NCBI RefSeq assembly: GCF_001975985.1
Contig: NZ_MTQF01000004.1
Coordinates: 217,838-281,837, forward strand
Direction of reading: 5' to 3'
DNA: 64,000 nt
From: [Flexibacter] sp. ATCC 35103
GTDB lineage: Bacteria > Bacteroidota > Bacteroidia > Flavobacteriales > Flavobacteriaceae
Shown: piece by piece, positions 8,754 to 64,000 of the stretch
Numbering within the stretch: position 1 is the first letter of the stretch
Layout of the letters: every line of letters starts with the position of its first letter
Program-made: the position numbers and the translations under genes
The notes under the pieces: generated by a model
Told to the model about the DNA's origin: nothing
The model's database searches: none
What the model saw: only the letters and a program-made list of their open reading frames with translations

Positions 8754-9461
8754 CTATTTAATCCCGCCAAAAGCGCCAAAACACATATTCTTGTGTAAAA
8801 TTTCAACACTTTTAAAACCAACTTTTTTCATTAAATCCAATTGGTAATTCATAGATCTGGGCGTGTCTTCTTTCTCAACATAATCCAAAACTTTCTGGCG
8901 ATATTCTGCACCGCCAATTCCTTCCAGATAATCTCCATAACGCTGCCAGGTATATTCATTCAACAAATCTGTGTCTTGTGTAATCAAATCCGAAATCATA
9001 AAACAGCCACCGGGTTTTAATAATTTAAATATTTTATCAAAAGTTGTTTCCCAATCCTGATCATCACGTAAATGATGTAAAACCGCTCCGGCCAAAATAA
9101 TATCAAAATGATTTTCAGACAAATCAACCTCACGAATATCACCTTGCTTCACTTCTACTTTTCCATTCGTCTCTGCCGATACTCTTTCAAAAGCCCGATC
9201 CAGCATCGGTAAACTCAAATCGACCAAAGTGCAATTTAAATTTGAAACTTTCGAAAGCATTTTTAAAGTATAATTCCCTGCGCCACAACCTATATCCAAT
9301 ATATTTTGAGCATTTGGCACAATTCTTTTAGAAGCTTCCGTAATTAATTCTAAAGAAATTGTAGCATCAATTGTCGCAACTTGACCGGTTTCTAAATTCG
9401 AAAATCGTTCGACATCATTATCGAATCTTTCTTTAATCTCAGTAATAGTTGATTTTTTCAT
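8754..9461 (-). CDS. Class I SAM-dependent methyltransferase
   Basis: A 235-residue Rossmann-type methyltransferase. Motif I is ILDIGCGAGNYTLKML, motif II ends in the acidic LVDLS, motif III is VKQGDIREV, and motif IV is FDIILAGAVLHHL followed by LLKPGGCFMISDL. Methylated substrate unknown; the overall pattern is like UbiE/Smt-type small-molecule methyltransferases. It is transcribed toward ygiN, alone in its unit. Confidence 0.85.
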   Translation of the reverse strand: MKKSTITEIKERFDNDVERFSNLETGQVATIDATISLELITEASKRIVPNAQNILDIGCGAGNYTLKMLSKVSNLNCTLVDLSLPMLDRAFERVSAETNGKVEVKQGDIREVDLSENHFDIILAGAVLHHLRDDQDWETTFDKIFKLLKPGGCFMISDLITQDTDLLNEYTWQRYGDYLEGIGGAEYRQKVLDYVEKEDTPRSMNYQLDLMKKVGFKSVEILHKNMCFGAFGGIK

Positions 9462-46572: not shown

Positions 46573-48048
46573 TTAATGATTGTCTTCGATATCTCTGGTA
46601 AAATTTGGAGATTTTGTTCTCATGACATTTATTATTGTTCGATGCATCCAAAGCAGGCATAGAATTGATATTATGAAAATAAATATCCATGAACTGGTCC
46701 AGAGACCGGTATAATTAAGGAGATAACCAAAAATGATTGGTCCAACAAAACCACCTAAACCGCCTATTAAACCAACCATTCCGCCTACAACTCCTACTTC
46801 ATTAGGAAAATATTCCGGGATGTGTTTGTAAACTGCTGCTTTACCAATTCCCCAGGAAATACCAATAAGAATCACCAGAACTACATAAACCCATAAATTA
46901 GCACTAAACTTAATTTGTGTCACACCCTGAGCCAGTAATTCTTTCTTTTTTACTTGTTGGTTTTGTTTTACTACGATTTCCTGCCACGAATTTTTTACCG
47001 GGAAAATAGCCGTTTCATGATCTTTAGAAGTCTCTTTTTGATTGATATTATGTACTTTACCATTAACAACTATTGCATTTGTAGAAACCTCAGTAACTAC
47101 ACCGCTATTAGTTGCGAGAACTCCGGGTCCTGCGGTAAAAATTTCCATTTTAGGAAACATTAATAAAAAGCTTATGACAATTGATGAGCCCAGAACCCAA
47201 TACATTACTTTTCTGGCTCCAAATTTATCCGACAGGTATCCTCCAAATGCTCTGATGATTCCGGAAGGCAAACTAAACATTGTAGCAAACATTCCTCCCA
47301 TTACCAATGAAGTATGATATACATTCATGAAATTTGGAACAAGCCATTGCGAATACGCGACAAAACATCCAAAAACTAAAAAATAATAAGTTCCAAATCT
47401 CCAAACCCTAACATTTTTAAGAGGAGACAATAATTCTGTCATGGTTTTTGAAACTCCTGGATTGGTTTTATTTTTCGCAAAAACAACAAAAAGAATTCCT
47501 ATAAGTACCAGAACAACTGCATAAATGACCGGAAGTAATTTCCATCCGTTTTGTGGATCTGTTTCTGAGAAGTTATTTAATAAAGTAGGTGCAATAAAAG
47601 TAGTAATTGCGGCACCTGCATTTCCCATTCCGAAAATGCCCAACGCTCTGCCCTGCCAATTTTTAGGATACCAGATCGAGGTATATCCTATTCCTACAGC
47701 AAAACTGGTACCTACTAAACCAAAGAAAAAACTTAGTACTGCAAAACTCCAGAAGGAATTAGCAAAAGGAAGGAGAAATAGTGGAATTGAACATAAAAAC
47801 AGTAAAATAGAAAATATAATTTTACCACCATATTTATCTGTCAATATACCAATAGGAAGCCTGAAAACAGATCCTGATAAAATGGGGATTCCTAAGAGCC
47901 AGCCTGTTTCAACAACTGTAAAATTAAATATCCCTTTATCTACAAGATAAGTGATCAGAACACCATTTAAAGTCCAGCAAGCGAAACACACTGAAAAAGC
48001 CAGTGTATTCAAAAATAAAATTCTGTGCGATTGAGATAAATTATCCAT
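46573..48048 (-). CDS. NarK1-like nitrate transporter with soluble insert
   Basis: A 491-residue major facilitator protein, a close paralog of narK at 20573 (identical stretches such as LSFFFGLVGTSFAVGIGYTS). It has about 12 membrane segments and the same soluble insert at about 305-378 (GVVTEVSTNAIVVNGKV, IVVKQNQQVKKKELL). It is probably a nitrate/H+ symporter, starting nitrate uptake before the antiporter takes over. It is the first gene of a seven-gene unit with gaps of 11-84 bases. Confidence 0.92.
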   Translation of the reverse strand: MDNLSQSHRILFLNTLAFSVCFACWTLNGVLITYLVDKGIFNFTVVETGWLLGIPILSGSVFRLPIGILTDKYGGKIIFSILLFLCSIPLFLLPFANSFWSFAVLSFFFGLVGTSFAVGIGYTSIWYPKNWQGRALGIFGMGNAGAAITTFIAPTLLNNFSETDPQNGWKLLPVIYAVVLVLIGILFVVFAKNKTNPGVSKTMTELLSPLKNVRVWRFGTYYFLVFGCFVAYSQWLVPNFMNVYHTSLVMGGMFATMFSLPSGIIRAFGGYLSDKFGARKVMYWVLGSSIVISFLLMFPKMEIFTAGPGVLATNSGVVTEVSTNAIVVNGKVHNINQKETSKDHETAIFPVKNSWQEIVVKQNQQVKKKELLAQGVTQIKFSANLWVYVVLVILIGISWGIGKAAVYKHIPEYFPNEVGVVGGMVGLIGGLGGFVGPIIFGYLLNYTGLWTSSWIFIFIISILCLLWMHRTIINVMRTKSPNFTRDIEDNH

Positions 48049-48109
48049 ATAGAAATATTAAAAACATCTAATTTTAGATTTATCGAGTACTAAATTCCTC
48101 AATTTGACG

Positions 48110-48153
48110 CAAAATTAAATCGTTAGATTCTTACAAAATATGATATATATCAT
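48110..48153 (-). promoter_or_regulatory. Promoter of the narK-nitrate reductase unit with FNR-like palindrome
   Basis: On the minus strand a -7 box TAATTTTG lies at 48117-48110. The palindrome ATGAT-ATAT-ATCAT (48140-48153) has the 5-4-5 form of FNR sites (TTGAT-N4-ATCAA). Its centre is about 42 bases before the presumed start of transcription, the distance for class II FNR activation. A further palindrome ATAAGTGCTTAT is at 48189-48200. Confidence 0.6.
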
Positions 48154-48200
48154 ACTAAAGACTTTCTTGTCTTTTATACAAATCAATAATAAGTGCTTAT

Positions 48201-49128
48201 AAAATAGATGGTTTCAATCAAGAACAATAATAACATTACAGGCAGCGGCTCTGCCATTTTAAGATCTTTTGTAAGAATAATTATTTTTGAGGTTAATGAT
48301 CTTAAAGTATTATAAATAATAATGTTCTCTTTTTTAGGTTAACATTTAACACAATAAAAATAGGAAAAATATTAAGGCTAAATAATTAATTATGAGTTAT
48401 TTACAATAAAACTTTAAAATATCATGTCTTTAAATTTATTAAAGTCTTTATTTATAGAGCTTAACAAGCTTAATCTTTTTCTTATAAAATTAATATATTA
48501 AGAGAATTTGTCTATGATGAAATATTTTTGTGTTTGATCTTAAATGCTCTCTAGTTGACGTTTTTGTGTTGATTTTGAATTCTCTAAGTTTTTAAAAATT
48601 AAAAAAACAAGTATAAAATACTACATTTTTTATACATTTCTAATCTGTTTTTTAACATTTGTTTGAGTTTAAAAAATAATTAAATAACTAAAAATCAATA
48701 TTTTAACCCCAAACAAACAGCTATTTTTATATTTCTGTTTAAAAAAAACGAACAATTTTTTGGATTTTATTATATTAAAATTAACTTTGTCTATAGGATT
48801 AGTAGAGTATAAAAATATTTGAAACCATAAAGAATTATATTTTGAAAACAACCGAAAGCATATCGTATTACATTCTTCCTAAAAAATATACATATAACAA
48901 TTTTTGTTATATGTGCTTCTGTTGCTAATTCTTAGCTTTTTTCGTTTGCATTCGGTTTCCCTTTACTATCGAATCGATTAAAAAACGAATCTTTAAAAAT
49001 ACATCACAAGATTTACCTTATTGAAATTACAAAAAGTCTGTTTGATACATCATTTGTATCGAAAGGATTATTGAAATTATACCTATAAATTAAAAAGAAA
49101 AACAACTAATAACTAAAAAAAAACTAAG
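48201..49128. other. Long AT-rich intergenic region with one isolated hairpin
   Basis: About 900 bases without a supported protein gene. 48890-48914 forms a perfect 10-bp hairpin (ACATATAACA/TGTTATATGT), and a weak GCTAA/TTAGC-T6 terminator-like motif follows at 48924-48940. 49044-49060 carries GATACA/TGTATC. These may belong to the leader of the SusC operon or to an unrecognised small RNA; neither is shown. Confidence 0.5.
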
Positions 49129-49161
49129 ATGAAGAATATGCAAGGCTGTTGCTGTAAATAA
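49129..49161 (+). CDS. Leader peptide MKNMQGCCCK with three consecutive Cys codons
   Basis: A ten-codon ORF (ATG at 49129, TAA at 49159) that reads TGT TGC TGT in its final third. It is preceded by an A-rich tract (AACTAAAAAAAAACTAAG), typical of start regions in Bacteroidota. A 10-bp hairpin begins six bases after the stop, and the SusC gene starts 134 bases later. The Cys run makes translation a gauge of charged Cys-tRNA. Downstream genes release sulfate from esters, so a cysteine-responsive attenuator is the natural reading. Poly-Cys leader peptides with that role are known in mycobacteria; I know of no description for this family. Confidence 0.72.
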   Translation: MKNMQGCCCK

Positions 49162-49166
49162 AAAAA

Positions 49167-49192
49167 GCCATTTCTGCGGCAACAGAAATGGC
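49167..49192 (+). promoter_or_regulatory. Attenuator-like hairpin after the Cys leader
   Basis: Perfect 10-bp stem GCCATTTCTG/CAGAAATGGC, loop CGGCAA. Part of its right side, GCAACAG (49179-49185), is complementary to CTGTTGC (49146-49152) in the Cys codons, so two exclusive folds exist. AAGCC (49165-49169) can also pair with GGCTT (49195-49199). No T-run follows, so simple intrinsic termination is unlikely. Confidence 0.7.
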
Positions 49193-49239
49193 AAGGCTTA
49201 AAGAACATTTATCACTAAATCAAGGAGAAACACTAGAGA

Positions 49240-49268
49240 GTTGAATATTCAACTTTCAAGGCGCCTTG
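49240..49268 (+). promoter_or_regulatory. Two adjacent perfect palindromes before SusC
   Basis: GTTGAATATTCAAC (49240-49253) and CAAGGCGCCTTG (49257-49268). The CAAGG of the latter also occurs at 49221, giving an alternative partner for CCTTG. They lie within the leader RNA 27-55 bases before the SusC ATG and could be RNA switches or protein-binding sites. Confidence 0.5.
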
Positions 49269-49294
49269 TTAATTACTTAAACCAGTACAAAGAA

Positions 49295-52200
49295 ATGAAA
49301 AAAAAATTAAACATATACTCATTGCTTTTTATCCTGTTGCTATCAGCAGGAATTAATGCCCAGAATACGACTCCTCTCATACAATCTAAGCTCGATGGAA
49401 CTGTGGTCGATGATATTACAAATCAACCTATTATTGGAGCTTCGATAAATATAAAAGGTACCACTCACGGAGTTGTTACAGATGCTGAAGGAAAATTTTA
49501 TTTTCAAACCGGACAAAAATTCCCTTATACTTTAATTGTTAGTTACATTGGATATAAAAAAGCAGAAGTTATCGTTGATAAAAATCCTGTAATAATTCAC
49601 CTGAAGGAAGAACGCCAGGAATTAGATGAGCTTGTAGTCGTGGGATATGGTTCTCAAAAACGAAAAGACATTACAGGTTCTGTAGCATCAGTTCCTAAAG
49701 CCAATTTATCTCAGGTTACCTCATCTGCAGATAATTTGTTAAGAGGAGCAATTGCCGGAGTGGTAGTTACGCAAAGTTCAGGTCGTCCGGGTGCTTCTTC
49801 AAGCGTTCGTATCAGAGGAGGAAACTCGATTACAGCCGGAAATGAACCTCTTTATGTAGTAGACGGAATATTGATTTATAATGATAACAATAATAGCTCA
49901 GCCGGAGTTTCGAATGCCGGCGCTTCTGTCAATGTATTATCGACTATAAATCCTGCCGATATTGAATCGATTGAAGTCTTAAAAGATGCATCAGCAACTG
50001 CAATATATGGATCTCGTGGTGCAAATGGTGTCGTAATTATCACCACTAAAAAAGGAACGAAAGGACAAGATAACATTTCGTATCAGGGTTATTTTGGGTT
50101 TCAGGATGTTTCAAAAAAATTACATTTAATGAATGCCAGTCAATGGGCAAGCTTACGTAATGATGTTCAGGCAAGTATTGGTCAGGCACCTGCGTTTTCT
50201 GCAGATCAGATAGAAGCGTTAAAAACGTCCGGAGGATATGACTGGCAATCTGCACTTTTTAGGACTGCAGCTCCGGTTCAAAATCATCAATTGTCATTTT
50301 CTGGTGGCGATGAAAGATCAAGATATGCTGTTTCTGCAGGTTATTTTCAACAGGATGGAATTGTAATTGCATCAGATTTTAAACGAATTTCTCTTCGTGT
50401 GAACTATGAAAGAAATTATTCTCAGGCTTTTAAATTTGGGGTGAATGCCAATTACAGCAATTCTGTTTCAAATGGTGTGGGGACAAATGGCGGGGCTTCT
50501 GCAGGGAGATCTCCAAGCCCTTTGGTTGTTGCTTTATATCAACCGCCTGTAGTACCTATTAAAAATGCAGACGGAAGTTACAATCTAACTAACAACCCTT
50601 ACTCAACTGCAGTAAACGGAATCATATCAAACCCAATTAATGATCTGGTAAGTACAACCAATGAAACTAAAATAAACAGAATTTTGACAAGTTTATTTGG
50701 TGAATATAAAATAACCAAAAAACTTGTGGCTAAAGTTGCTGTTAGCGGAGATGTAATTAATACTAAACAAAATTATTATGCTCCGGCTACTACTACATCA
50801 GGTGCGGGAACTAAAGGTTTAGCATCTGTTGGTGATCGACTGGTAAGTTCTGTATTGAATGAAAATACTTTGAACTACAATACTACTTTTGGCGAAAATC
50901 ATAAATTCTCAGCTTTAGGAGGTTATACGCTTCAATACACTCAGGGTGAAGTTGTAAATGCAGGTGCCAATACTTTTGTAAATGATGCCAATACTTACAA
51001 TGCTTTGCAAGATGGTGTTCCTGTAAAACCGTATAGTGATGCATTCGAAAGTGTATTAAAATCGTGGTTGACCAGAATAAATTATTCTTATAAAGGAAAA
51101 TACAATTTTACACTTTCGGCACGTGCTGACGGTTCGTCACGATTTGGTTCTGAATCTCTTTGGGGTTACTTTCCTTCAGCAGGATTTTCATGGAATATTA
51201 CAGACGAAGACTTTGCAAAAAATATAAAAGGTGTAACCGAAGCCAAACTTAGAATTACAGCTGGAACAACAGGAAATCAGGAAATTGGAAATTATCTTTC
51301 TCTTGCCTCAATGGGTTCTGTAAATTATGCTTTTGGAGGTACATTGCAAACAGGTCTTGCTCCTACCCGATTGGCAAATCCTGATTTGAAATGGGAAAAA
51401 ACAGATCAATATAATGTTGGTTTAGACTTATCCTTATTAGATCGAAAAATCAATTTTGTTTTTGATGTGTACTACAAGAAAACAAATGATTTATTGATTA
51501 ATGTACCTGTGCCGTTAACTTCAGGATATGCCACAGTTCTTCAGAATATTGGTGGTGTTGAGAACAAAGGTGTCGAAATTGGCCTGACGACAGAAAACCT
51601 GAAAACAGAAAATTTCTCGTGGAATTCGAATATTGTATTTTCAGCAAACAAAAACAAAGTAGTATCTATAGGAAACGGAGTTGACCAGTTTTTTCCGGTC
51701 GTACCAAATGGTTCTTTATTACAGCAACAACCTGTTACAGTAAAAGTAGGATTGCCATTGGGAACTTTTTGGGGATACAAAACAAATGGTATTTTCCAGA
51801 CTCAGGAAGAAGTGAATACACAGCCTAAAATAAACAGTTTGGCCAATACAAAAGTGGGGGACAGAAAATATGTAGATACTAACGGAGATGGCGTAATTAC
51901 AGCACTTGACAAAGGAAACCTTGGAAGCTCACAGCCAAAATTTGTTGGAAGTTTCAGCAACACGATTTCTTATAATGACTTTGATCTTAATTTCTCTTTT
52001 CAGGGATCTTACGGAGGAAAAATTTTCAATGCACTAAATCAGCAATTAGAGATTTCTACTCTTGGAACAAATGCTAATGTAACTCTTGAAGATCGCTGGA
52101 CACCTGCTAACCCAAGCAATGAAATCCCAAGAGCCACAAGTTCACCACTGGGTATTGTTTCTGAACGTTATGTAGAAGATGCATCTTTTTTAAGATTAAA

Positions 52201-52426
52201 ACTGATCACTTTGGGTTATACACTTCCTAAAAGCCTTTCTTCGAGACTGGGTGCCAAGAGTATTAAATTCTATGTCTCTGCAGAAAATTTAATTACATGG
52301 ACAAAATACACTGGTTATGATCCAGAAGTAAGTTCATACGAACAAAACAATTTATATCCCGGAATTGACTTTGGATCTTATCCAAATTCTAAAACATTCA
52401 TTTCCGGCCTGAACGTAACTTTTTAA
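49295..52426 (+). CDS. SusC/RagA family TonB-dependent outer membrane transporter
   Basis: A 1043-residue TonB-dependent receptor. Signal peptide (LLFILLLSAGINAQ), carboxypeptidase-like N-terminal extension (GTVVDDITNQPIIGASINIKG), then the plug with the SusC-type motif ELVVVGYGSQKRKDITGSV and ADIESIEVLKDASATAIYGSRGANG, then the barrel ending in SGLNVTF. ATG at 49295 gives the signal peptide; the frame opens at a TTG at 49241 inside a palindrome. With SusD it takes up a nutrient; the following sulfatases suggest sulfated organic compounds. Confidence 0.94.
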   Translation: MKKKLNIYSLLFILLLSAGINAQNTTPLIQSKLDGTVVDDITNQPIIGASINIKGTTHGVVTDAEGKFYFQTGQKFPYTLIVSYIGYKKAEVIVDKNPVIIHLKEERQELDELVVVGYGSQKRKDITGSVASVPKANLSQVTSSADNLLRGAIAGVVVTQSSGRPGASSSVRIRGGNSITAGNEPLYVVDGILIYNDNNNSSAGVSNAGASVNVLSTINPADIESIEVLKDASATAIYGSRGANGVVIITTKKGTKGQDNISYQGYFGFQDVSKKLHLMNASQWASLRNDVQASIGQAPAFSADQIEALKTSGGYDWQSALFRTAAPVQNHQLSFSGGDERSRYAVSAGYFQQDGIVIASDFKRISLRVNYERNYSQAFKFGVNANYSNSVSNGVGTNGGASAGRSPSPLVVALYQPPVVPIKNADGSYNLTNNPYSTAVNGIISNPINDLVSTTNETKINRILTSLFGEYKITKKLVAKVAVSGDVINTKQNYYAPATTTSGAGTKGLASVGDRLVSSVLNENTLNYNTTFGENHKFSALGGYTLQYTQGEVVNAGANTFVNDANTYNALQDGVPVKPYSDAFESVLKSWLTRINYSYKGKYNFTLSARADGSSRFGSESLWGYFPSAGFSWNITDEDFAKNIKGVTEAKLRITAGTTGNQEIGNYLSLASMGSVNYAFGGTLQTGLAPTRLANPDLKWEKTDQYNVGLDLSLLDRKINFVFDVYYKKTNDLLINVPVPLTSGYATVLQNIGGVENKGVEIGLTTENLKTENFSWNSNIVFSANKNKVVSIGNGVDQFFPVVPNGSLLQQQPVTVKVGLPLGTFWGYKTNGIFQTQEEVNTQPKINSLANTKVGDRKYVDTNGDGVITALDKGNLGSSQPKFVGSFSNTISYNDFDLNFSFQGSYGGKIFNALNQQLEISTLGTNANVTLEDRWTPANPSNEIPRATSSPLGIVSERYVEDASFLRLKLITLGYTLPKSLSSRLGAKSIKFYVSAENLITWTKYTGYDPEVSSYEQNNLYPGIDFGSYPNSKTFISGLNVTF

Positions 52427-52439
52427 GTAAAAATATACC

Positions 52440-53912
52440 ATGAAAAAGATTCTATTCACAATCATATTAAGTGCCGGTTTATTTGCATCGTGCACAGATC
52501 TGGAGGTAACACCAACTTCTTTTGTAACCGAAGATAATTATTTTAAAACCCAGGATGATGCTATTGCAAGTGTAACTGCTGTTTATGCTTCATTAAGTCT
52601 TGATCCGGGAGAACAAAGTTTATTTGGCCGAAACCTGTATTTCTTAACAGATATGGCGACAGATTATGCTGCAGCCGGAGTTTCTGCTACAAACCCGCAA
52701 GTACGCGCATTGAGCAGTTTGACCCATGATGCCACTTCTGATCGTGTTCAGGTAGCCTGGCGCCAGATTTATGCCGGAATAAACAGAGCAAACGTATCTA
52801 TAGACAACATTCCTAAAGTAGCCGGAACAGAGGTTATTAAAACAAGATTAATCAATGAAGCAAAATTTATAAGAGCCTTATTATATTTTCAGGCAGTTCG
52901 TCTTTGGGGCGGAGTTCCAATTGTTTTACATGAACCAACTTCTATTCAGGTAGAAAGTTTAAAATCTAAAAGAGCAACTGTAGATGAAGTCTATGCACAA
53001 ATCATTACAGACTTAAAAGATGCAGAAAACTTACCTGCGACTTATGCTGCAACTGATGCTGGACGAGCTACATCCGGAGCTGCAAAAGCAATTTTAGCTA
53101 AAGTTTACCTGACCAGAAAAGATTATCCAAATGCAATTTTAAAAGCAAGAGAAGTAATCAATGGCGGTTACGGATATGCACTTTTTGAAAGTTTTGGAGA
53201 TATATTTGCAAAAGCAAAAAAGAACGGAAAAGAAGATATTTTCTCTGTTCAGTTTGAGCCTAATATGGCTGGAAACGGATCTAGCGGAAGTACGTTTCAA
53301 TCTACCTCTTTTACTGGATTTACAGCCACAGAACCGGCAGATATTATTTCTGATGTAGCTCAGTTTTATGATATATACGCAACCGGAGATACCAGAAGAG
53401 ATGTAAGTTATGCCAAAACATTACCAATTCCGGGTACAGCAAACACGTACACTTTTCCTAAACCAATTTTTAAAAAATACCTGGATTTAACCAATCTGGC
53501 AACGCCCGGCAACGTAGCCATTAATTTTCCTGTTATTCGTTATGCTGATATCCTATTGTCTCTGGCGGAAGCGATAAATGAACAGGGAGCACCAACAGCA
53601 GAAGCATATGAATTGATCAATCAGGTAAGACGAAGAGCTTTTGCAAAACCAATTACAACACCGGATGCAACTGTAGATCTAATTGGATTAACGCAAACCT
53701 CTTTCAGGGCTGCTATTCAGGAAGAACGCAAAAAAGAATTTGTTCAGGAAGGACAACGCTGGTATGATTTAGTTCGCTGGGGAACTCTGGTTACCGAAGT
53801 AAAAAAAGTAACCGCTAAAAACTCCGTTTCCGAAAGAAATAATTTATATCCAATTCCGCAAAGCGAAAGAAATATTGATCCTGTAGGGTTACCACAAAAC
53901 CCTGGATATTAA
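52440..53912 (+). CDS. SusD/RagB family nutrient-binding lipoprotein
   Basis: A 490-residue lipoprotein. The signal peptide ends in FASC with acylation at Cys18, and the SusD hallmarks follow: PTSFVTEDNYFKTQDDAIA, a TPR-like N-terminal helical domain with EAKFIRALLYFQAVRLWGGVP (about 140-160), and the C-terminal RRRAFAKP and ERKKEFVQEGQRWYDLVRWG. It lies 13 bases after SusC, the usual pair. It would lid the SusC channel and bind the ligand at the cell surface. Confidence 0.94.
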   Translation: MKKILFTIILSAGLFASCTDLEVTPTSFVTEDNYFKTQDDAIASVTAVYASLSLDPGEQSLFGRNLYFLTDMATDYAAAGVSATNPQVRALSSLTHDATSDRVQVAWRQIYAGINRANVSIDNIPKVAGTEVIKTRLINEAKFIRALLYFQAVRLWGGVPIVLHEPTSIQVESLKSKRATVDEVYAQIITDLKDAENLPATYAATDAGRATSGAAKAILAKVYLTRKDYPNAILKAREVINGGYGYALFESFGDIFAKAKKNGKEDIFSVQFEPNMAGNGSSGSTFQSTSFTGFTATEPADIISDVAQFYDIYATGDTRRDVSYAKTLPIPGTANTYTFPKPIFKKYLDLTNLATPGNVAINFPVIRYADILLSLAEAINEQGAPTAEAYELINQVRRRAFAKPITTPDATVDLIGLTQTSFRAAIQEERKKEFVQEGQRWYDLVRWGTLVTEVKKVTAKNSVSERNNLYPIPQSERNIDPVGLPQNPGY

Positions 53913-53940: not shown

Positions 53941-55866
53941 ATGAAAAATTTTAAATTTAACAGTACAATCAAAAGCTCGCAAAAAGGGCTTTTGATTACT
54001 GCATTGCTTGTTGTACAATTCGGTTTTGCACAAGATAAAAATGTAGAATTCAAAGGTGTAGTTGGTAAAACTCTAGCCGATTCTAAAGAATATTGGCCAG
54101 ATCCTGTAAAAGCGCCTGCAGGTGCACCAAACGTTGTCTGGATTTTATTAGACGATGTAGGATTTGGAGCTTCAAGTGCTTTTGGAGGTTTGATTCAAAC
54201 CCCAAATTTTGATCAATTGGCAAATAATGGTTTGCGATACACCAACTTTCATACGACTGCTATTTGCGCTCCTACCCGTGCGGCATTATTAACCGGTAGA
54301 AATTCAGGTAAAGTACACGTTAGCGGGTTCTCTCACACTATTCTTTCAGCAGGTTTCCCGGGTTGGGATGGCAGAATCCCGTCAGATAAAGGAACTATTG
54401 CAGAGATTTTACGTGAGAATGGCTATAATACTTTTGCCGTTGGTAAATATGGTGTAACTCCAGATGAAGAAGCTACAGATGCAGGACCGTTTGACAGATG
54501 GCCAACCGGAAAAGGATTTGATCATTTCTATGGCTTCTTAGGTTCACAAACAGATCAGTACAATCCTGATTTAGTAGAAGATCAAACACATATAAAACCA
54601 GATGGGCGTCATTTAAACGAACTTATTACGGATAAAGCGATTAGTTTTATTCAGAAACAACAAAAAGCAGCGCCGGGAAAACCGTTCTTTTTGTATTATG
54701 CTCCCGGAGCAGCTCATGCGCCGCATCAGGTGGCTACAAAATGGAGCGATCCTTATAAAGGAAAATTTGACAAAGGCTGGGATGCGTATCGTGAAGAAGT
54801 AATTGCAAACCAAAAGAAACTAGGTGTAATTCCTGCAAACGCTGTATTACCGGACCGTAACCCGCTTATTACAGACTGGAAAAAACTTACTCCGGAACAA
54901 AAGAAAGTATATGCTCGTTTTATGGAAGTTTATGCCGGATTCCTGACGTATACAGATTATGAAATTGGAAGAGTGGTAAACTATCTAAAAGAAAGCAATC
55001 AGTTGGACAATACAGTCATTTTTGTTGCAATTGGTGATAATGGAGCCAGTAAAGAAGGAACTACAGAAGGAACAATTAACCAAAGTTTATTTTCTCAGGG
55101 AACATCTGACGACGAAAACCTAAAGAAAAACCTGGCTAATATTGATGAAATTGGTACTGCAAAAGGTTTAAATACAAATTACCCTTTAGGATGGGCCCAG
55201 GCAACAAATGTACCTTTTAAAAACTGGAAACAAGATGCACAATCTGAAGGTGGAACACATAATCCGTTGATTGTTTTTTATCCAAAAGGAATCAAAGAAA
55301 AAGGCGGAATCAGAAATCAATACAGTCATGTAACCGATTTATTGCCTACAACACTGGATATTGCGGGAATTAAAGCTCCGGAATATATCAAATCAGTAAA
55401 ACAAGATACCATACAAGGTTCTTCTTTATATGCTTCTTTGAACGATGCCAAAGCAGAATCTTTACACAAAATCCAGTATTACTATATTTTTGGAAACAGA
55501 GCTATCTATAAAGATGGATGGAAAGCCGGAGCAGCACATTTACCAGATTCATTTGCCGTAAAAAAAGCTTTGGGAAAAAATGAAAAACCTGCCGAAAGCA
55601 ATTTTGACTCTGATGTTTGGGAATTATACAACTTAAACGAAGATTTTAACGAGCGTAATAATCTTGCCAAAAAATATCCTGAAAAATTAGCTGAACTGCA
55701 AAAACTTTTTGATGAGCAAGCCAAAGAAAACAATGTTTATCCGCTTATAGACTGGCAGGATGTATACAACAGAAGAATTCATAATACCGGAGCTGACAAA
55801 GGCAAAACGTTACAGGATTTAGTAAAACAAGTCAACAAAGGCGGAGATGCCGGAAGCTCTAAATAA
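53941..55866 (+). CDS. Arylsulfatase-type sulfatase, exported
   Basis: Cleaves sulfate esters. A 641-residue enzyme with N-terminal signal peptide (ITALLVVQFGFAQ). Metal ligands Asp71-Asp72 in WILLDDVGFG, and the formylglycine motif C-x-P-x-R at Cys109 (CAPTRAALLTGR); the Cys form needs a maturation enzyme, which is not in this window. GDNGASKEG gives further metal ligands. The length is greater than that of most arylsulfatases because of a C-terminal domain. It is 28 bases after SusD. Substrate unknown. Confidence 0.93.
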   Translation: MKNFKFNSTIKSSQKGLLITALLVVQFGFAQDKNVEFKGVVGKTLADSKEYWPDPVKAPAGAPNVVWILLDDVGFGASSAFGGLIQTPNFDQLANNGLRYTNFHTTAICAPTRAALLTGRNSGKVHVSGFSHTILSAGFPGWDGRIPSDKGTIAEILRENGYNTFAVGKYGVTPDEEATDAGPFDRWPTGKGFDHFYGFLGSQTDQYNPDLVEDQTHIKPDGRHLNELITDKAISFIQKQQKAAPGKPFFLYYAPGAAHAPHQVATKWSDPYKGKFDKGWDAYREEVIANQKKLGVIPANAVLPDRNPLITDWKKLTPEQKKVYARFMEVYAGFLTYTDYEIGRVVNYLKESNQLDNTVIFVAIGDNGASKEGTTEGTINQSLFSQGTSDDENLKKNLANIDEIGTAKGLNTNYPLGWAQATNVPFKNWKQDAQSEGGTHNPLIVFYPKGIKEKGGIRNQYSHVTDLLPTTLDIAGIKAPEYIKSVKQDTIQGSSLYASLNDAKAESLHKIQYYYIFGNRAIYKDGWKAGAAHLPDSFAVKKALGKNEKPAESNFDSDVWELYNLNEDFNERNNLAKKYPEKLAELQKLFDEQAKENNVYPLIDWQDVYNRRIHNTGADKGKTLQDLVKQVNKGGDAGSSK

Positions 55867-57533: not shown

Positions 57534-58595
57534 ATGGCAATAGTTCAAAAATCAAAACTAACAAGAGATTTAGGTATTAGTCTTTTGTTGTATGCACTGC
57601 CGGTAGTGGCAATTTATCTTTATTTCAAATTAGGCAATGGCCTGATAACTGATTCTCACATTACTTTACCCTCATTTTTAGAATTTGCGCAGCCTGCGTT
57701 TGCTAATATCAGAACATGGGGATTAACCGTTTTTATGCTTGTTTTAGGAATCATTGAGTTTGGCGCAGGTTTATATGACGATCAATGGACAGGTGAAGAA
57801 CGCAAAATAGATATCATTTCTTTCCTGGCACCCAAACTAATTTTACCTCCTGTAATTGCTTTTTTCAGCTTAACAGCTTTACCTTATTTAATTCCTGATC
57901 TTGCCAACTCACTTTCATGGGTTCCGTTTTGGGGAGGTTTCTTTTTAATCGCTGTTGCAGATGATTTAACACAATATTGGTATCACAGATTGCACCATCA
58001 GGTTCCGTTTTTGTGGCGTTTTCACAGAACACATCATTCCGCTCCTTATATGGGTATGGCGATGCTTTCGAGACAAAACTTTATTTATACCATTTTCTTT
58101 TCTCAAATTTATTTAACAGCGGCTCTAACTTATTTAGGTTTAGGTTTACCTGCGTTATTTGTTTTGGTCATCAAAAGTTTTATTACTCTGGGAGCGCATT
58201 CCAGCATTGCGTGGGATAAACCACTTTACAAATACAAAGTTTTACACCCAATTGCATGGGTTTTAGAACGTTTGATTTCTACTCCTGCAACGCATCACGC
58301 GCATCATGCTGATACAAGTGGCGATGGAGTTGGCCATTTTAAAGGCAACTTTGGTAATATGTTCTTTATCTGGGATGTCATTTTTGGGACTGGTTTAATC
58401 ACACGTAAATTTCCAAAATCGTACGGAATCAAATCGTATAAACAAGAAGAATGGTATGCGCAGTTTTTGTGGCCAATATTCAAATCTAAAAAAGAAGGAA
58501 GTGCCCTTGCCGAAGGCGTTTTTGCTGTTCCGCTAAAGCAAAAAGAAGAAAGTATTTCTCCAACTCCGGTTTATTACGAGCAAGCTCAATCATAA
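57534..58595 (+). CDS. Sterol desaturase/fatty acid hydroxylase family protein
   Basis: A 353-residue integral membrane di-iron protein. The His-box motifs are seen: HRLHH and HRTHH (about 157-178), and THHAHHAD (about 258-265). Several hydrophobic segments precede and intervene. The family hydroxylates or desaturates sterols, carotenoids, fatty acids and other lipids. Beside sulfatases it may oxidize the carbon portion of a sulfated lipid or alkyl group (inference). Confidence 0.88.
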   Translation: MAIVQKSKLTRDLGISLLLYALPVVAIYLYFKLGNGLITDSHITLPSFLEFAQPAFANIRTWGLTVFMLVLGIIEFGAGLYDDQWTGEERKIDIISFLAPKLILPPVIAFFSLTALPYLIPDLANSLSWVPFWGGFFLIAVADDLTQYWYHRLHHQVPFLWRFHRTHHSAPYMGMAMLSRQNFIYTIFFSQIYLTAALTYLGLGLPALFVLVIKSFITLGAHSSIAWDKPLYKYKVLHPIAWVLERLISTPATHHAHHADTSGDGVGHFKGNFGNMFFIWDVIFGTGLITRKFPKSYGIKSYKQEEWYAQFLWPIFKSKKEGSALAEGVFAVPLKQKEESISPTPVYYEQAQS

Positions 58596-58607: not shown

Positions 58608-58644
58608 AAACAGTGTATTCTTCATTAAGATGAATACACTGTTT
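58608..58644 (+). terminator. Long hairpin between operon genes
   Basis: Stem AAACAGTGTATTC/GAATACACTGTTT, 13 bp perfect, loop of 11 bases. Followed by GGCTATAAAAAC, not a true T-run. It may reduce expression of genes farther down or protect the upstream mRNA. Confidence 0.6.
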
Positions 58645-58663
58645 GGCTATAAAAACAATAATT

Positions 58664-59380
58664 ATGAAAAATATAGTACTTAAAACCAGTACAATTATAT
58701 ACCTGTTTTTTACCACTCTGGGTTTTGCTCAGGACAAAGGTGCCAGCAGTATTGTATTACTGGATGCTTTTTATGCAAAAATTAAAAGTCAAAAAAATCC
58801 ACAGATAATTGATGCGAGAGGTCCGGAAGAATTTGCCTTAAACCATATCGAAGGTGCTTTAAATTTTAACCTTAAATCAGAGAATTACGAAAAAGCCGTA
58901 GCTGCTTTAAATCCTTTACAACCGGTATTTATTTATTCGATTGCCGCATACAGAAGTGGTCTTTTATCAACTGAATTAATAAAAAAAGGATTCTCTGAGG
59001 TATATATTTTAGAAGGCGGAATTGCAGCCTGGATTGGTGGTGGAAAACCTTTTTACTCCAATTTAAAAAGCAAATTATCATTATCGGAATACAAAAAAAT
59101 AATCGCTGAAAATAAGTATGTTTTGGTAGATATCGGATCAAAATATTGTGCAACCTGCAAAACCGTAAAACCTATTTTAGAAAATCTGAGAACCCAATAC
59201 GGAGAAAAACTCAAAATTGTTCAAATTGAGCTAGAAGAAAGTCCGCAGGTTATCGCCGATTTAAAAACAGTAAAAGTCTTTCCTACTTTGATATTGTATC
59301 AAAATGGTAAAATTGTTTTTAAAAATGATGGTTTAGGAGACTTAAAAAATAATGTTGATGTGGCTTTGGCTTCGAAATAA
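58664..59380 (+). CDS. Exported rhodanese-thioredoxin fusion with degenerate rhodanese site
   Basis: A 238-residue protein with signal peptide (IIYLFFTTLGFAQ). Residues 30-135 form a rhodanese domain (QIIDARGPEEFALNHIEGALNF, ILEGGIAAWIGGG), but the active loop reads FIYSIAAYRSG, with Ser92 where catalytic Cys is expected. Residues 140-238 form a thioredoxin domain with an intact C-A-T-C at 162-165. I chose ATG at 58664, which directly gives the signal peptide. The thioredoxin part could act as periplasmic reductase or oxidase in the sulfur locus. Confidence 0.85.
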   Translation: MKNIVLKTSTIIYLFFTTLGFAQDKGASSIVLLDAFYAKIKSQKNPQIIDARGPEEFALNHIEGALNFNLKSENYEKAVAALNPLQPVFIYSIAAYRSGLLSTELIKKGFSEVYILEGGIAAWIGGGKPFYSNLKSKLSLSEYKKIIAENKYVLVDIGSKYCATCKTVKPILENLRTQYGEKLKIVQIELEESPQVIADLKTVKVFPTLILYQNGKIVFKNDGLGDLKNNVDVALASK

Positions 59381-59387
59381 AAAAAAT

Positions 59388-61004
59388 ATGGCGCTATCCA
59401 AAATAAAAAAAATCACTCTGTCAATAGTTATTGTCCTTTTTCTAATAGCATTATTTCTATTCTGGCCCATCAATACGGATGGAACTTTAATACAACCGGA
59501 TAAAAAATTATTAGCAGGAAAAGCAGCATTTCTTTCTGAAAAAATTTCTACAGACAGTTCTTTCAAAAAACCAAATATTATCATTCTTCTTGCTGATGAT
59601 TTAGGAAAATATGATATTTCGCTATACGGAGGAAAATCTACACCAACACCACAAATAGATTCACTGGCAGCTTCAGGCGTAACTTTTCAGGATGGTTATG
59701 TTTCAGCTTCTATTTGTTCGCCTTCTCGAGCCGGAATTTTAACGGGACGTTATCAGGAACGTTTTGGACATGAATTTCAACCTGGAGACCGATATCCCAA
59801 AAATAACTTAGAATATTATGGTTTTAAGTATTTGATCAATACAAATAATTGGAGACTGAATGATAAAATCAATTATCCAAACGAAGCTTCGATTGCAACA
59901 CAAGGATTGCCACAATCTGAAATTACTTTTGCAGATCTGGCAAAAAGAGAAGGTTACAGCACGGCAATTATTGGTAAATGGCATCTGGGACATAACAAAG
60001 GATTTTTTCCTTTAGATCGTGGCTTCGATTATCATTACGGATTCTATCAGGCATTCTCGCTTTATACTCCCGAAGATGATAATCCGGATATTATCAACCA
60101 TCATCATAAAGATTTTACCGATAAAATGATTTGGGGAAATGGCCGTGTTGGCATTGGACAAATTCGTCGCGACACCACCATCATACATAATAAAGCATAT
60201 CTAACCGAAACATTCGCTGATGAAGCAGAAGCTTTTATTGAAAAAAACAAAACCAAACCTTTTTTATTATATGTTCCGTTTAATGCACCACACACGCCAT
60301 TTCAGGTTCGTAAAAAATATTATGATCGTTTCCCGAATGTAAAAGACGAAAACAAACGGGTTTATTTTGCCATGATCAGCGCATTGGATGATGCCGTGGG
60401 AAGAATCAGGGCCAAAGTTAAAAAAGAAGGTCTGGAAGATAATACATTAATCTTTTTTGCCAGCGATAATGGTGGTGCAGATTATACTTTTGCAACAACA
60501 AACGCGCCATTGAAAGCCGGAAAGTTTTCTCATTTTGAAGGCGGAGTAAATGTTCCGTTTGCACTTTCGTGGAAGGGAAAAATCAAACCACACACCATTT
60601 ATAAAACGCCGGTAAGTACTTTGGATATTTTTAGTACAATTGCCGCTGCCATTAATTCTGATTTACCAAAAGACCGTGTTTATGATGGAGTTGATCTCGT
60701 AAGTACCGTTAATGAAAACAAAGAAGCACACAAAACTTTATATTGGCGATCCGGCGATGCAAAAGCCATTAGGAGCGGTGATTGGAAATTAATCATCAGC
60801 GGAAAAACACACGAAGAATGGCTTTATAATTTAGCAAAAGACAAATCTGAAACTACAGATCTTGCCAAAAAAAATCCGGCGAAAGTAACAGAATTACATC
60901 TTGCTTTACAAAACTGGGAAAAAGGCCTGGTAAAACCTTTATGGCCAAATCTAACACATTATGAATTTGATTTTGGCAAACAAAAATATTTTGTCGATTT
61001 GTAA
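59388..61004 (+). CDS. Sulfatase with N-terminal membrane anchor
   Basis: A 538-residue sulfatase. An N-terminal hydrophobic segment (about 8-27) is either an anchor or an uncleaved signal. Metal ligands Asp70-Asp71 (IIILLADDLGKYD), formylglycine motif at Cys110 (CSPSRAGILTGRYQ), GKWHLGH and FASDNGGAD are all intact. ATG at 59388, eight bases after the rhodanese-thioredoxin stop, is chosen over an upstream codon inside that gene. Substrate not deducible. Confidence 0.93.
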   Translation: MALSKIKKITLSIVIVLFLIALFLFWPINTDGTLIQPDKKLLAGKAAFLSEKISTDSSFKKPNIIILLADDLGKYDISLYGGKSTPTPQIDSLAASGVTFQDGYVSASICSPSRAGILTGRYQERFGHEFQPGDRYPKNNLEYYGFKYLINTNNWRLNDKINYPNEASIATQGLPQSEITFADLAKREGYSTAIIGKWHLGHNKGFFPLDRGFDYHYGFYQAFSLYTPEDDNPDIINHHHKDFTDKMIWGNGRVGIGQIRRDTTIIHNKAYLTETFADEAEAFIEKNKTKPFLLYVPFNAPHTPFQVRKKYYDRFPNVKDENKRVYFAMISALDDAVGRIRAKVKKEGLEDNTLIFFASDNGGADYTFATTNAPLKAGKFSHFEGGVNVPFALSWKGKIKPHTIYKTPVSTLDIFSTIAAAINSDLPKDRVYDGVDLVSTVNENKEAHKTLYWRSGDAKAIRSGDWKLIISGKTHEEWLYNLAKDKSETTDLAKKNPAKVTELHLALQNWEKGLVKPLWPNLTHYEFDFGKQKYFVDL

Positions 61005-61225: not shown

Positions 61226-62488
61226 ATGTCAACCTCAACCAAATCATTGAACATTCACGAAGACTGGACTGTCGTAATTCTCGGATTTATAATCATCGGG
61301 ATTTCCCTTTTTGTATTCCTGCCCGAAGTTCCGGTTTTCAAATGGTCAACCGGAACCGATTTATTCCAGGATGTATTTGATTTCGGAAACCTTAAAATTA
61401 TCGGATTACAATTTTTATATCTTATCATTATCGGTACTCTGGGAGCTTTTCTGATCGGTAAATCGGTAAAATACTTTTTGCTTGGCTTTCCAGTTGTTTA
61501 TATCCTGACTGTTATTGCACTGATTATTGCAGGAAATACTCAAATAAAAGCATTGAATTTAGAAGCTGTAATTTTTAGTTTGATTATTGGTTTGGCAATT
61601 GGTAATTTCTTTAAACTTCCGGAATGGTTTCGATCAGCACTTTCTACAGAAGTTTTTGTAAAAGTTGGATTGGTTTTATTAGGAACCAGCGTTATCTTTT
61701 CAGACATTCTAAAAGCAGGTTCTTTAGGATTAATTCAGGCTTTGATTGTAGTATTATCCGTTTGGTATTTTGCTTTTTGGTTGTGTAAAAAACTAAAAGT
61801 CGATGATGAACTGACGATGATGATTTCAAGTGCAGTTTCTATTTGTGGCGTTTCTGCAGCCATTGCCACTTCAGGAGCGATAAAAGGTGATTCTAAAAAA
61901 CTGTCTTATGTTATTTCGATTGTTTTGGTAACCGCAATTCCAATGATGATTTTCATGCCCATAATTGCAAAATATTTCAATTTTCCTGAAGAAGTTACCG
62001 GCGCATGGTTAGGCGGAAGTATCGATACATCAGGCGCTGTGGTAGCTTCCGGATCTTTGGTTGGCGAAACTGCTTTGAAGATTAGCACGATTGTAAAATT
62101 TTCTCAAAATGTATTATTAGGCATAGCTGCTTTTGCAATCTCAGTATATTGGACCTATACACATAACAAATCAGAAGAAGTTATAGCATCAAAACCTACT
62201 TTAAGTGTTATTTGGGAACGTTTTCCAAAGTTTGTAATTGGATTTATTGCGGCTTCATTGCTGTTTTCTTTCCTGCTAACTTCTGAAACCAGAGATGGTG
62301 TAAAAGACAGCCTGAAGAATTTACAAGGCATATGGTTTGCTTTGGCTTTTACCAGTATTGGTCTCGAAACCAACTTTAAGGATTTACTGAGTAATAATAG
62401 CCGTAAACCTTTGTACGCCTTTTTAATAGCGCAATTATTCAATGTCATTGTTACCCTGATTATTGCTTTTTTACTGTTTGGTAAGTAA
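61226..62488 (+). CDS. YeiH/UPF0324-type membrane transporter (putative sulfate exporter)
   Basis: A 420-residue membrane protein with about ten or eleven hydrophobic segments. Family features are LGTSVIFSDIL, VSICGVSAAIATSGAI, GAWLGGSIDTSGAVVASG and FTSIGLETNFKDLL. It is longer than the E. coli homolog YeiH because of an N-terminal extension. The family is annotated as putative sulfate exporters without firm proof; next to sulfatases such a role for sulfate or sulfite handling makes sense. Confidence 0.87.
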   Translation: MSTSTKSLNIHEDWTVVILGFIIIGISLFVFLPEVPVFKWSTGTDLFQDVFDFGNLKIIGLQFLYLIIIGTLGAFLIGKSVKYFLLGFPVVYILTVIALIIAGNTQIKALNLEAVIFSLIIGLAIGNFFKLPEWFRSALSTEVFVKVGLVLLGTSVIFSDILKAGSLGLIQALIVVLSVWYFAFWLCKKLKVDDELTMMISSAVSICGVSAAIATSGAIKGDSKKLSYVISIVLVTAIPMMIFMPIIAKYFNFPEEVTGAWLGGSIDTSGAVVASGSLVGETALKISTIVKFSQNVLLGIAAFAISVYWTYTHNKSEEVIASKPTLSVIWERFPKFVIGFIAASLLFSFLLTSETRDGVKDSLKNLQGIWFALAFTSIGLETNFKDLLSNNSRKPLYAFLIAQLFNVIVTLIIAFLLFGK

Positions 62489-62690: not shown

Positions 62691-64000
62691 ATGAAAAAAA
62701 CAATTATTACGCTAAACCTTCTGCTATCAGTCGTTTTAGTTTCGGCACAAAACAAAACAACTGCTGAAAAACCCAATATCATTTTAATAATGGTTGATGA
62801 TATGGGATATTCTGACTTAGGGAATTATGGCTCAGAAATTAAAACGCCAAACTTAGATAAATTAGCCAATGAAGGTTTACGCCTACGCGAATTCTACAAT
62901 AATTCGATTTGTGCACCAACAAGAGGATCGTTACTTACGGGACAATATCAGCATAAGGCCGGAATGGGATTTTTTGATGTCAATTTAGGATTACCGGCGT
63001 ATCAGGGCTATTTAAACAAAGAATCTTTGACATTAGGAGAAGTTTTTCGTTCGGGAGGTTATAGCACTTTACTTTCCGGAAAATGGCACGTAGGCTCTGA
63101 AGATCAGGCGCAATGGCCGAATCAAAGAGGTTTTGATAAGTTTTACGGAATCCTAAAAGGTGCCTCCAACTATTTTGATACCAAACCGTTGCCATTTGGA
63201 AAAACACCTTATCCTGTAAAACTGATTCGGAATAATGAAGAATTACATCCAAAAGATGATTCGTACTATTTTACAGATGAAATTGGCAACAATGCGGTGA
63301 CTTTTTTAGACGAGCAAAACAAAGAAAACAAACCGTTCTTTTTGTATTTGGCTTTTACGGCTCCACATTGGCCATTGCAAGCAAAACCGGTTGATATTGC
63401 AAAATACCGAGGCAAATTTGATGAAGGTTGGGATATTCTAAGAGAAAAAAGAATTGCAAAACTTAAAGCAAACGGCATTTTACCAAGTAATCAAACGGTT
63501 TCTGCCAGAGATCCTGAAGTTCCGGAATGGAGTAAATTATCCTATGACGAAAAACAATTCTGGAAAGCAAAAATGGAAGTTTATGCCGCAATGGTGGATA
63601 ATATGGATCAGAATGTGGGTAAAGTTCTGGAGAAATTAAAAGCGCTTAAGAAAGACAAAAATACGCTGATTATTTTTATTTCTGATAATGGTGCGCAAGG
63701 CGGTTTTAACACCTATAATCCGTTAGGAAGAGGTTTAGTTCGAAATGAAGGTCCTGTTGGAACTTCAGGATCATTTGATTATCAGGAACAAAACTGGGCA
63801 TATTTATCTAATACTCCACTTCAGCAATATAAAAACAATATGCATGAAGGCGGATTCAGTTCTCCGTTTATTGCCTGGTTTCCATCAAAAATAAAAGCAG
63901 GCAGAATAGATAAAGGAACTGGGCATATCATTGATCTTGCGCCTACTTTTTACGAATTGGCAGGAATCGAATATCCAAAAGAATATAACGGCATAAACTC
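62691..64000 (+). CDS. Third sulfatase, truncated by the window end
   Basis: Open from ATG at 62691 to the window end (436 codons seen). Signal peptide LLLSVVLVSAQ, metal ligands Asp36-Asp37 (LIMVDDMGYSD), formylglycine motif at Cys74 (CAPTRGSLLTGQYQ), SGKWHVG and FISDNGAQGGF. It resembles the sulfatase at 53941 in the region before the central metal motif (KANGILPSNQTVSARDPEVPEWSKL). The gene likely ends within a few hundred bases after 64000. Confidence 0.93.
   Translation, partial: MKKTIITLNLLLSVVLVSAQNKTTAEKPNIILIMVDDMGYSDLGNYGSEIKTPNLDKLANEGLRLREFYNNSICAPTRGSLLTGQYQHKAGMGFFDVNLGLPAYQGYLNKESLTLGEVFRSGGYSTLLSGKWHVGSEDQAQWPNQRGFDKFYGILKGASNYFDTKPLPFGKTPYPVKLIRNNEELHPKDDSYYFTDEIGNNAVTFLDEQNKENKPFFLYLAFTAPHWPLQAKPVDIAKYRGKFDEGWDILREKRIAKLKANGILPSNQTVSARDPEVPEWSKLSYDEKQFWKAKMEVYAAMVDNMDQNVGKVLEKLKALKKDKNTLIIFISDNGAQGGFNTYNPLGRGLVRNEGPVGTSGSFDYQEQNWAYLSNTPLQQYKNNMHEGGFSSPFIAWFPSKIKAGRIDKGTGHIIDLAPTFYELAGIEYPKEYNGIN

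Follow-up and report, generated by a model that had tools for sequence, protein, structure and literature searches.

The 5' region of a SusCD-sulfatase operon in [Flexibacter] sp. ATCC 35103 contains two short upstream reading frames, here called leader 1 and leader 2, in which Cys codons lie near the end. Both frames are real, their coding for Cys is conserved, and they are linked to sulfur genes. Their arrangement and conservation make it probable that they form a tandem pair of cis-acting leaders, which would measure the level of charged Cys-tRNA and induce sulfur scavenging when cysteine is short.

The operon lies on the plus strand of a 64,000-nucleotide stretch of contig NZ_MTQF01000004.1 (hereafter the window, within which all positions are counted unless stated otherwise). 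It opens with a SusC-like TonB-dependent receptor (49295 to 52426; Pfam Plug, TonB barrel, and CarbopepD_reg_2), whose start codon is placed at 49295, although several of the offsets used were counted from its second codon, 49298. There follow a SusD-like lipoprotein (52440 to 53912; Pfam SusD_RagB and SusD-like_3), a sulfatase (53941 to 55866; Pfam Sulfatase), a fatty-acid-hydroxylase family protein (57534 to 58595; Pfam FA_hydroxylase), a rhodanese-thioredoxin protein (58643 to 59380; Pfam Rhodanese and Thioredoxin), a second sulfatase (59352 to 61004; Pfam Sulfatase), and a YeiH-like membrane protein of the Cons_hypoth698 family (61226 to 62488; Pfam PF03601). The window SusC is 99% identical to those of Flavobacterium aquidurense RC62 and Flavobacterium sp. 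Leaf82. The loci surveyed were the best 80 of 159 confirmed SusC relatives; all belong to the single genus Flavobacterium and are not independent of one another. SusD and a sulfatase are encoded on the same strand as SusC in all 80 (tblastn), the fatty-acid hydroxylase in 79, the second sulfatase in 64, the rhodanese-thioredoxin protein in 60, and the YeiH-like protein in 35. Between 55960 and 57258 of the window, DUF1254 and DUF1214 domains (Pfam) fall on two adjacent ORFs, possibly one gene split in two, with matches in 18 and 17 of the 80 loci, respectively. Another sulfatase-like ORF was recognized by eye from 62692 past the end of the window (62692 to 64000). A search of positions 48000 to 49700 with the Rfam covariance models gave no match up to E = 1.

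Leader 2 (49129 to 49161, plus strand) encodes MKNMQGCCCK through the codons ATG AAG AAT ATG CAA GGC TGT TGC TGT AAA TAA. Five bases past its stop codon lies the hairpin HP1 (GCCATTTCTGCGGCAACAGAAATGGC, 49167 to 49192, plus strand), which is built as GCCATTTCTG-CGGCAA-CAGAAATGGC with a 10-bp stem and a 6-base loop. An earlier note on this DNA had claimed a ten-codon Cys frame followed by a perfect hairpin, and a direct reading of the sequence found both as described. The complementarity that it had pointed out between the Cys codons and the hairpin is likewise there (CTGTTGC, 49146 to 49152, with GCAACAG, 49179 to 49185), and extends to 11 bp when G-U pairs are allowed (CUGUUGCUGUA with UGCGGCAACAG). 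HP1 and the alternative fold that involves the Cys codons have the same predicted energy, −18.5 kcal/mol each, and a 241-nt region folds better than 200 of 200 shuffled sequences (z = −3.17). A second hairpin, HP2 (GAGAGTTGAATATTCAACTTTC, 49236 to 49257, plus strand), is predicted by RNAalifold upstream of SusC; 3 of its 5 predicted pairs are preserved despite changes on both sides.

Conservation of the leader in close relatives, on which the earlier note had staked its proposal in advance, was found throughout the survey. All 80 loci carry a short ATG-initiated frame with Cys-Cys before SusC, starting about 150 to 180 nt upstream, compared with only 1 of the 188 further genes in these loci that have 250 nt or more of free DNA upstream, a control filtered slightly more strictly in that Cys-Cys was also required near the end of the frame. 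Among 81 elements, the window included, leader 2 always has two to four Cys residues (three in 57, two in 22, and four in 2). Its common form is MK.M..CCCK, with the variants CCK, SCCK, CCFK, and MKRMCCR; the stop codon lies 5 nt ahead of HP1 in 68 of the 81 elements, and the 10-bp stem is perfect in 80. Nine paralogous elements are left with one Cys in leader 2 (L122, L300, L301, L302, and L304) or with none (L124, L322, L333, and L334), and leader 1 of the same nine still ends in Cys-Cys. By this comparison, leader 2, which comes after leader 1, is the less constant of the two. The HP1 core and loop persist in the paralogues whose leader 2 Cys codons are lost; in the table of paralogue hairpins, a few rows repeat the same hairpin as read from the reverse strand, and the row for L126 at position 3159 is a hairpin of another kind, unrelated to it.

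A second SusCD family (L119, L125, L127, L128, and many of the loci L311 to L338) shares HP1 and HP2 together with an upstream frame, MKKRMCCR, whose Cys codons decay (MHCR, MHSR, and MQCS). In most loci of this family no leader 1 is to be seen. A covariance model of the HP1-HP2 element, run with stricter filters in the large searches, matched the own genome, one congener, and one weak site (G260, L155) among 249 genomes of the family, and three genomes of the genus among 148 of the phylum. The weak site was treated as false, for its 2.2-kb locus holds neither a Cys frame, according to the filter, nor a SusC gene that could be recognized by eye.

Leader 1 was overlooked in the earlier note and was first noticed as MCFCC followed by a stop codon about 380 nt before SusC. 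The full frame (48842 to 48928, plus strand) is started by TTG, encodes the 28-amino-acid peptide (M)KTTESISYYILPKKYTYNNFCYMCFCC, and ends in CYMCFCC. It was found in 79 of 79 testable SusC loci, one further locus (L107) having too little upstream DNA for the test. Leader 1 is better conserved than leader 2. Both leaders are present in the locus of F. johnsoniae strain CI04 (L058). In 70 frames of 29 codons, the window included, the start codon is TTG in 52 and GTG in 18, and codons 25, 27, and 28 specify Cys in every case; L061 and L068, for which there was no anchor, and seven frames of other length were left out of this codon table. The three Cys codons of the tail vary at their third positions only, synonymously, with TGC/TGT ratios of 44/26, 6/64, and 36/34. 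Among 61 distinct sequences, differences number 129, 170, and 273 at the first, second, and third codon positions. Divergent members have another peptide and keep the Cys tail (RMCCCC or RVCCCC), as in MQRSISFDTLRRMCCCC; one paralogue (L124) has lost one Cys of the tail (MYFCC). In L322 and L334, leader 1 stands directly ahead of a gene that was read by eye as a sulfatase. A scan of the own genome for the pattern CxCC-stop gave 24 matches versus 18 in the control, and of the 24 loci inspected, the window site (L142) alone had the look of a leader ahead of a gene.

The Cys tail of leader 1 (ATG TGC TTC TGT TGC TAA, 48911 to 48928, plus strand) is complementary to the leader's own 5' segment. 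Its predicted pairing with the first codons amounts to −11.9 kcal/mol in the window and to a mean of −12.4 over the 79 loci, with a mean z of −2.5 and z < −1.5 in 62 of them; these fold z-scores are based on mononucleotide shuffles, and the sequences are related to one another. Past the leader, the hairpin TTCGTTT...AAACGAA (48941 to 48989, plus strand) is a candidate weak terminator. Parts of both its arms are nearly invariant and its interior is variable among 38 aligned sequences; z is below −1.5 in 44 of 79 loci, and the T content downstream is modest. A general antiterminator for leader 1 was not found: the window value is −12.8 kcal/mol (z = −2.2), and z < −1.5 was reached in only 15 of the 79 loci.

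Upstream of leader 1, alignment revealed a conserved box (TCTATAGGATTAGTAGA, 48790 to 48806, plus strand), probably a promoter or regulator site, which hardly varies among 77 aligned upstream regions, that of the window included; of the 79 testable loci, 71 have a relaxed motif of it. By itself the box is not specific: with at most two mismatches it has 16 matches in the own genome, and its reversed control has 11. Six of these 16 loci beyond the window were inspected, and no Cys leader was recognized in four. The only other exact copy in the own genome is in reverse orientation and adjoins a Cys leader with six Cys codons, MSNKRENMFNLSENRMHANMLMFCCCCCC..., ahead of a gene of the PhyH family (Pfam), a dioxygenase gene at C1:10875-11675 on the minus strand (L247). 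Matches to PhyH were obtained in 21 of 150 genomes, four of which (L264 to L267) are distant; the remaining 17 are close homologues (at least 92% identity), and all of them have a leader with 4 to 9 consecutive Cys codons. This leader stops before the PhyH start in 6 of the 17 loci and overlaps the start in the other 11; in 13 of the 17, the exact box lies ahead of it in reverse orientation. The PhyH-family dioxygenase may be a sulfur-scavenging enzyme.

A copy of the box with two mismatches precedes a leader with Met and Cys, MKMKTIANNMMICCDMMQMCIPIRCCQK, before metY (identified by NCBIfam TIGR01326) in the own genome. After this leader come a G+C-rich stem and eight T, as judged by eye, then a small ORF, and finally metY. 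The region lies on contig C24 (L226, positions about 8827 to 9303), with a TonB receptor gene just upstream; about 12 to 16 kb downstream are cysH and cysD (PF01507), and in the same region cysN and sulfite-reductase-like genes were recognized by eye. Leaders with Met and Cys were recognized before metY in 4 of 30 loci, the own genome included, the rest being of other genera.

Cys leaders also occur in other families. The pattern MCCCC-stop had three matches in 296 genomes of the order, with no control matches among the matches listed: the SusC leader of a congener and, in two other families, leaders ahead of TonB receptors that are homologous. Of 30 loci of this receptor family, 15 (L194 to L202, L205, L207 to L210, and L220) have adjacent Cys codons in a frame within 200 nt of the receptor start, in a scan that demanded no start codon, such that the frames printed for L205 and L210 are without Met. 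The Cys frame is doubtful in L214 and L218, and none with adjacent Cys codons was found at the Flavobacterium receptor loci L211 to L213. In L224 and L230, the TonB receptor with an MCCC(C/F) leader has two neighbors that were identified by eye: a cluster for thiamine biosynthesis and another outer-membrane protein gene, which is divergent.

Searched phylum-wide, the pattern CCCC-stop gave matches in 179 of 395 genomes, which are mostly noise, with control matches in many rows. Thirty of the listed matches were taken further, frames longer than 70 amino acids (L360) being skipped, and 7 of the 30 lie outside long open frames according to the filter used. Two of the seven precede cysH (by 69 and 156 nt), one precedes cysS (by 65 nt), and one precedes PhyH; L367, an additionally flagged locus, is a PhyH leader. 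The cysH leaders, with CCCC and CCCCCCC, come from two other families of the same class (L349 in G936 and L352 in G857), and the leader of cysS, the cysteinyl-tRNA synthetase gene, from one genome only (L351, G969:C1). The CCCC-stop frames at L341, L353, and L361 are probably due to chance. No Cys leader was found right before the PAPS_reduct genes (cysD/cysH) in 30 loci of the order; adjacent-Cys frames were present in L176 and L190 only, neither of them right before the PAPS_reduct gene. The tie between a Cys leader and sulfur genes, which the earlier note had proposed for this operon, is conserved in the genus and recurs before metY, PhyH, TonB receptor genes, cysH, and cysS. Possibly, the PhyH and TonB receptor genes that stand behind Cys leaders are themselves sulfur-related.

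Two traits of an amino acid attenuator are seen here: a Cys-rich frame that appears conserved as coding (79 of 79 testable loci for leader 1 and 81 of 81 elements for leader 2) and downstream genes that supply or use the amino acid (a sulfatase in 80 of 80 loci, and metY, cysH, and cysS elsewhere). Of another trait, a terminator and an antiterminator that alternate on the coding strand with a U-run, leader 1 offers a weak hairpin, leader 2 no plus-strand terminator, and the metY leader the stem and eight T judged by eye. In the mechanism that we propose, transcription would start between the conserved box and leader 1. When Cys-tRNA is plentiful, leader 1 would be translated to its end, its Cys segment would fold back on the 5' segment of the same leader, and termination would follow downstream through the hairpin at 48941 to 48989 or through Rho. 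When Cys-tRNA is scarce, the ribosome would stall at the CxCC tail ahead of the stop codon, the segment would stay open, and transcription would continue. Leader 2 would serve as a second Cys checkpoint just before SusC, where a ribosome stalled on the Cys codons might prevent them from pairing with HP1, a fold that is possible by prediction. The pair would belong to a wider set of Cys leaders, with metY and PhyH in the same genome and TonB receptors, cysH, and cysS across the phylum.

The switch between hairpins that the earlier note had envisaged for leader 2 fares unevenly. The alternative fold is indeed as stable as HP1, but the codons are not tuned to it, and the HP1 core outlives the Cys codons. 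When the Cys codons were compared with their synonyms, the actual ones paired best with HP1 in 3 of 78 cases, about 12 being expected at random; the mean pairing energy was −14.08 kcal/mol versus −13.66 over the synonyms. The terminator scan found no plus-strand terminator for leader 2, and HP1 as a plus-strand terminator was set aside for want of a T-run. The earlier note had already remarked on the missing T-run, and on the plus strand there is none past HP1, where 1 to 3 of the next 8 bases are T; the run lies on the minus strand. The single match of the terminator scan, versus 0.2 expected, is HP1 read on that strand, an apparent intrinsic terminator of a stem followed by seven T (49160 to 49192, minus strand), and 7 or 8 of the 8 bases after the stem are T in 80 of the 81 elements. 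It is the A-tract ahead of HP1 that makes the hairpin resemble an intrinsic terminator on the minus strand.

This conserved terminator-like element upstream of susC speaks for a different explanation, in which a cis-antisense RNA resembling DonS would start on the minus strand near the SusC start codon, end at HP1, and repress SusC. On that view cysteine would be sensed by leader 1 alone, and leader 2 would be incidental or secondary. On the minus strand, a box that differs at one base from TANNTTTG, which we take to be the consensus of the −7 promoter box, does overlie the SusC start in 79 of the 89 elements; six paralogues more have it at the equivalent place. However, in DNA so rich in AT, boxes with one mismatch are nearly as common at two neighboring offsets (59 and 58 of 89), and none of the ten elements listed shows a TTG at the −33 spacing from the box; the antisense promoter is therefore weak evidence. 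The A-tract overlaps the AAA TAA of leader 2 and may be kept for other reasons, and it is poor (4 or 5 of 8) in four paralogues with leader 1 (L124, L322, L333, and L334). The asymmetry of wobble pairs does not decide the strand of HP1 (A-C 14 and G-U 10 in 25 distinct forms), and the corresponding count for HP2 (G-U 86 and A-C 51) is noisy because its stems were found automatically. Moreover, an antisense RNA leaves the Cys codons unexplained. We consider such an RNA possible, yet doubtful on the sequences at hand. The antisense RNA and the Cys leaders are compatible, and it is tempting to join the two: a Cys-tRNA leader regulon of Bacteroidota would control sulfur acquisition, including SusCD/TonB uptake and sulfatases, and at this operon two serial checkpoints would be interlocked with a DonS-like antisense RNA, whose terminator, HP1, the Cys codons of leader 2 could open. 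We offer this larger scheme as speculation that is rather unlikely to hold in full.

Neither of two further accounts treats the frames as sensors of Cys-tRNA. The frames might make functional Cys-rich micropeptides, for instance metal- or thiol-binding ones, as the Cys-rich tails could bind metals and most of leader 1 is conserved. Against this, the peptides of leader 1, leader 2, PhyH, and metY otherwise differ, and leaders 1 and 2 keep Cys at or close to their ends; runs of consecutive Cys residues range in number from 2 to 9; the frames precede sulfur genes, cysS and cysH among them; and the PhyH leader overlaps the PhyH start in 11 of its 17 loci. We regard micropeptides as very improbable. 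The Cys frames might otherwise be chance ORFs in AT-rich leader DNA that is kept for its RNA structure or as a promoter, and the Cys codons of both leaders do take part in predicted pairings. In leader 2, Cys at codon 8 is TGC in 61 of 68 cases and at codon 9 TGT in 62 of 63, so a constraint at the nucleotide level is possible there. However, the third-position changes in the tail of leader 1 come with zero amino acid changes in 70 frames, the control regions are practically devoid of Cys-Cys frames, and unrelated Cys leaders stand before other genes, which together leave chance ORFs with scarcely any credibility. Tandem Cys leaders that act in cis remain the reading we prefer.

SusCD-sulfatase loci are usually read as carbon acquisition systems for polysaccharides. 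If the proposal of tandem Cys leaders is true, the SusCD-sulfatase system of the window would be deployed for sulfur, and its expression would track cysteine status rather than glycan supply. Cys-leader control would then extend to Bacteroidota, and short frames that end in Cys runs would provide a search key for unannotated sulfur uptake receptors and PhyH-like dioxygenase genes.

To our knowledge, Cys-leader control has been described from Actinobacteria only. The polycysteine leaders of mycobacteria have reportedly been studied experimentally by Canestrari et al. in 2020. Mycobacterial cys operons are described as having leader ORFs with Cys runs and without obvious terminators (PMC1262725). 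The leaders described here are alike in being short upstream ORFs with a Cys run near the stop codon, sulfur genes downstream, and no obvious terminator; the Cys run near the stop codon, an actinobacterial trait, holds for the PhyH leader only where it stops right after the run, in 6 of the 17 loci. Unlike the mycobacterial leaders, they belong to another phylum, form a tandem pair, and precede an outer-membrane SusCD-sulfatase system; in addition, leader 1 starts with TTG or GTG, and the hairpin resembles a terminator of the other strand. The target genes of the actinobacterial polycysteine cases differ from those of the window operon, and the peptides are too short for a comparison of ancestry.

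The classical amino acid leader attenuators are those of trp and his. As in these, the leader encodes an amino acid to whose supply the operon may contribute, and the metY leader is followed by a terminator-like stem and a T-run. Unlike in these, leader 2 has no plus-strand terminator, no conserved terminator/antiterminator pair was found for leader 1, and the target is nutrient uptake instead of biosynthesis. Within Bacteroidota, leader-peptide attenuation is reported upstream of amino acid biosynthesis operons in Flavobacterium psychrophilum (PMC9723704). No description of Cys leaders in Bacteroidota was found in open-access full text, so far as its accessible parts extend, and the supplementary table of the F. 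psychrophilum study may hold a Cys case. Tandem attenuators are described for mgtCBR (PMC3641672), with two short leader ORFs within one long leader RNA, as proposed for the operon in question; here both frames encode Cys. A SusCD-sulfatase target, the tandem layout, and an antisense-type terminator were not met in earlier descriptions of leader-peptide attenuation. The closest counterpart of that terminator is the DonS family, cis-antisense RNAs of 78 to 128 nt directed to susC homologues in polysaccharide utilization loci of Bacteroides (PMC7366714 and PMC11697453). Like the DonS loci, the window has an apparent terminator on the minus strand, a short way upstream of its susC homologue. Unlike DonS, the antisense RNA here is putative, the HP1-HP2 element was found only in Flavobacterium by the model searches (the one weak match being treated as false), and the terminator is combined with Cys leaders.
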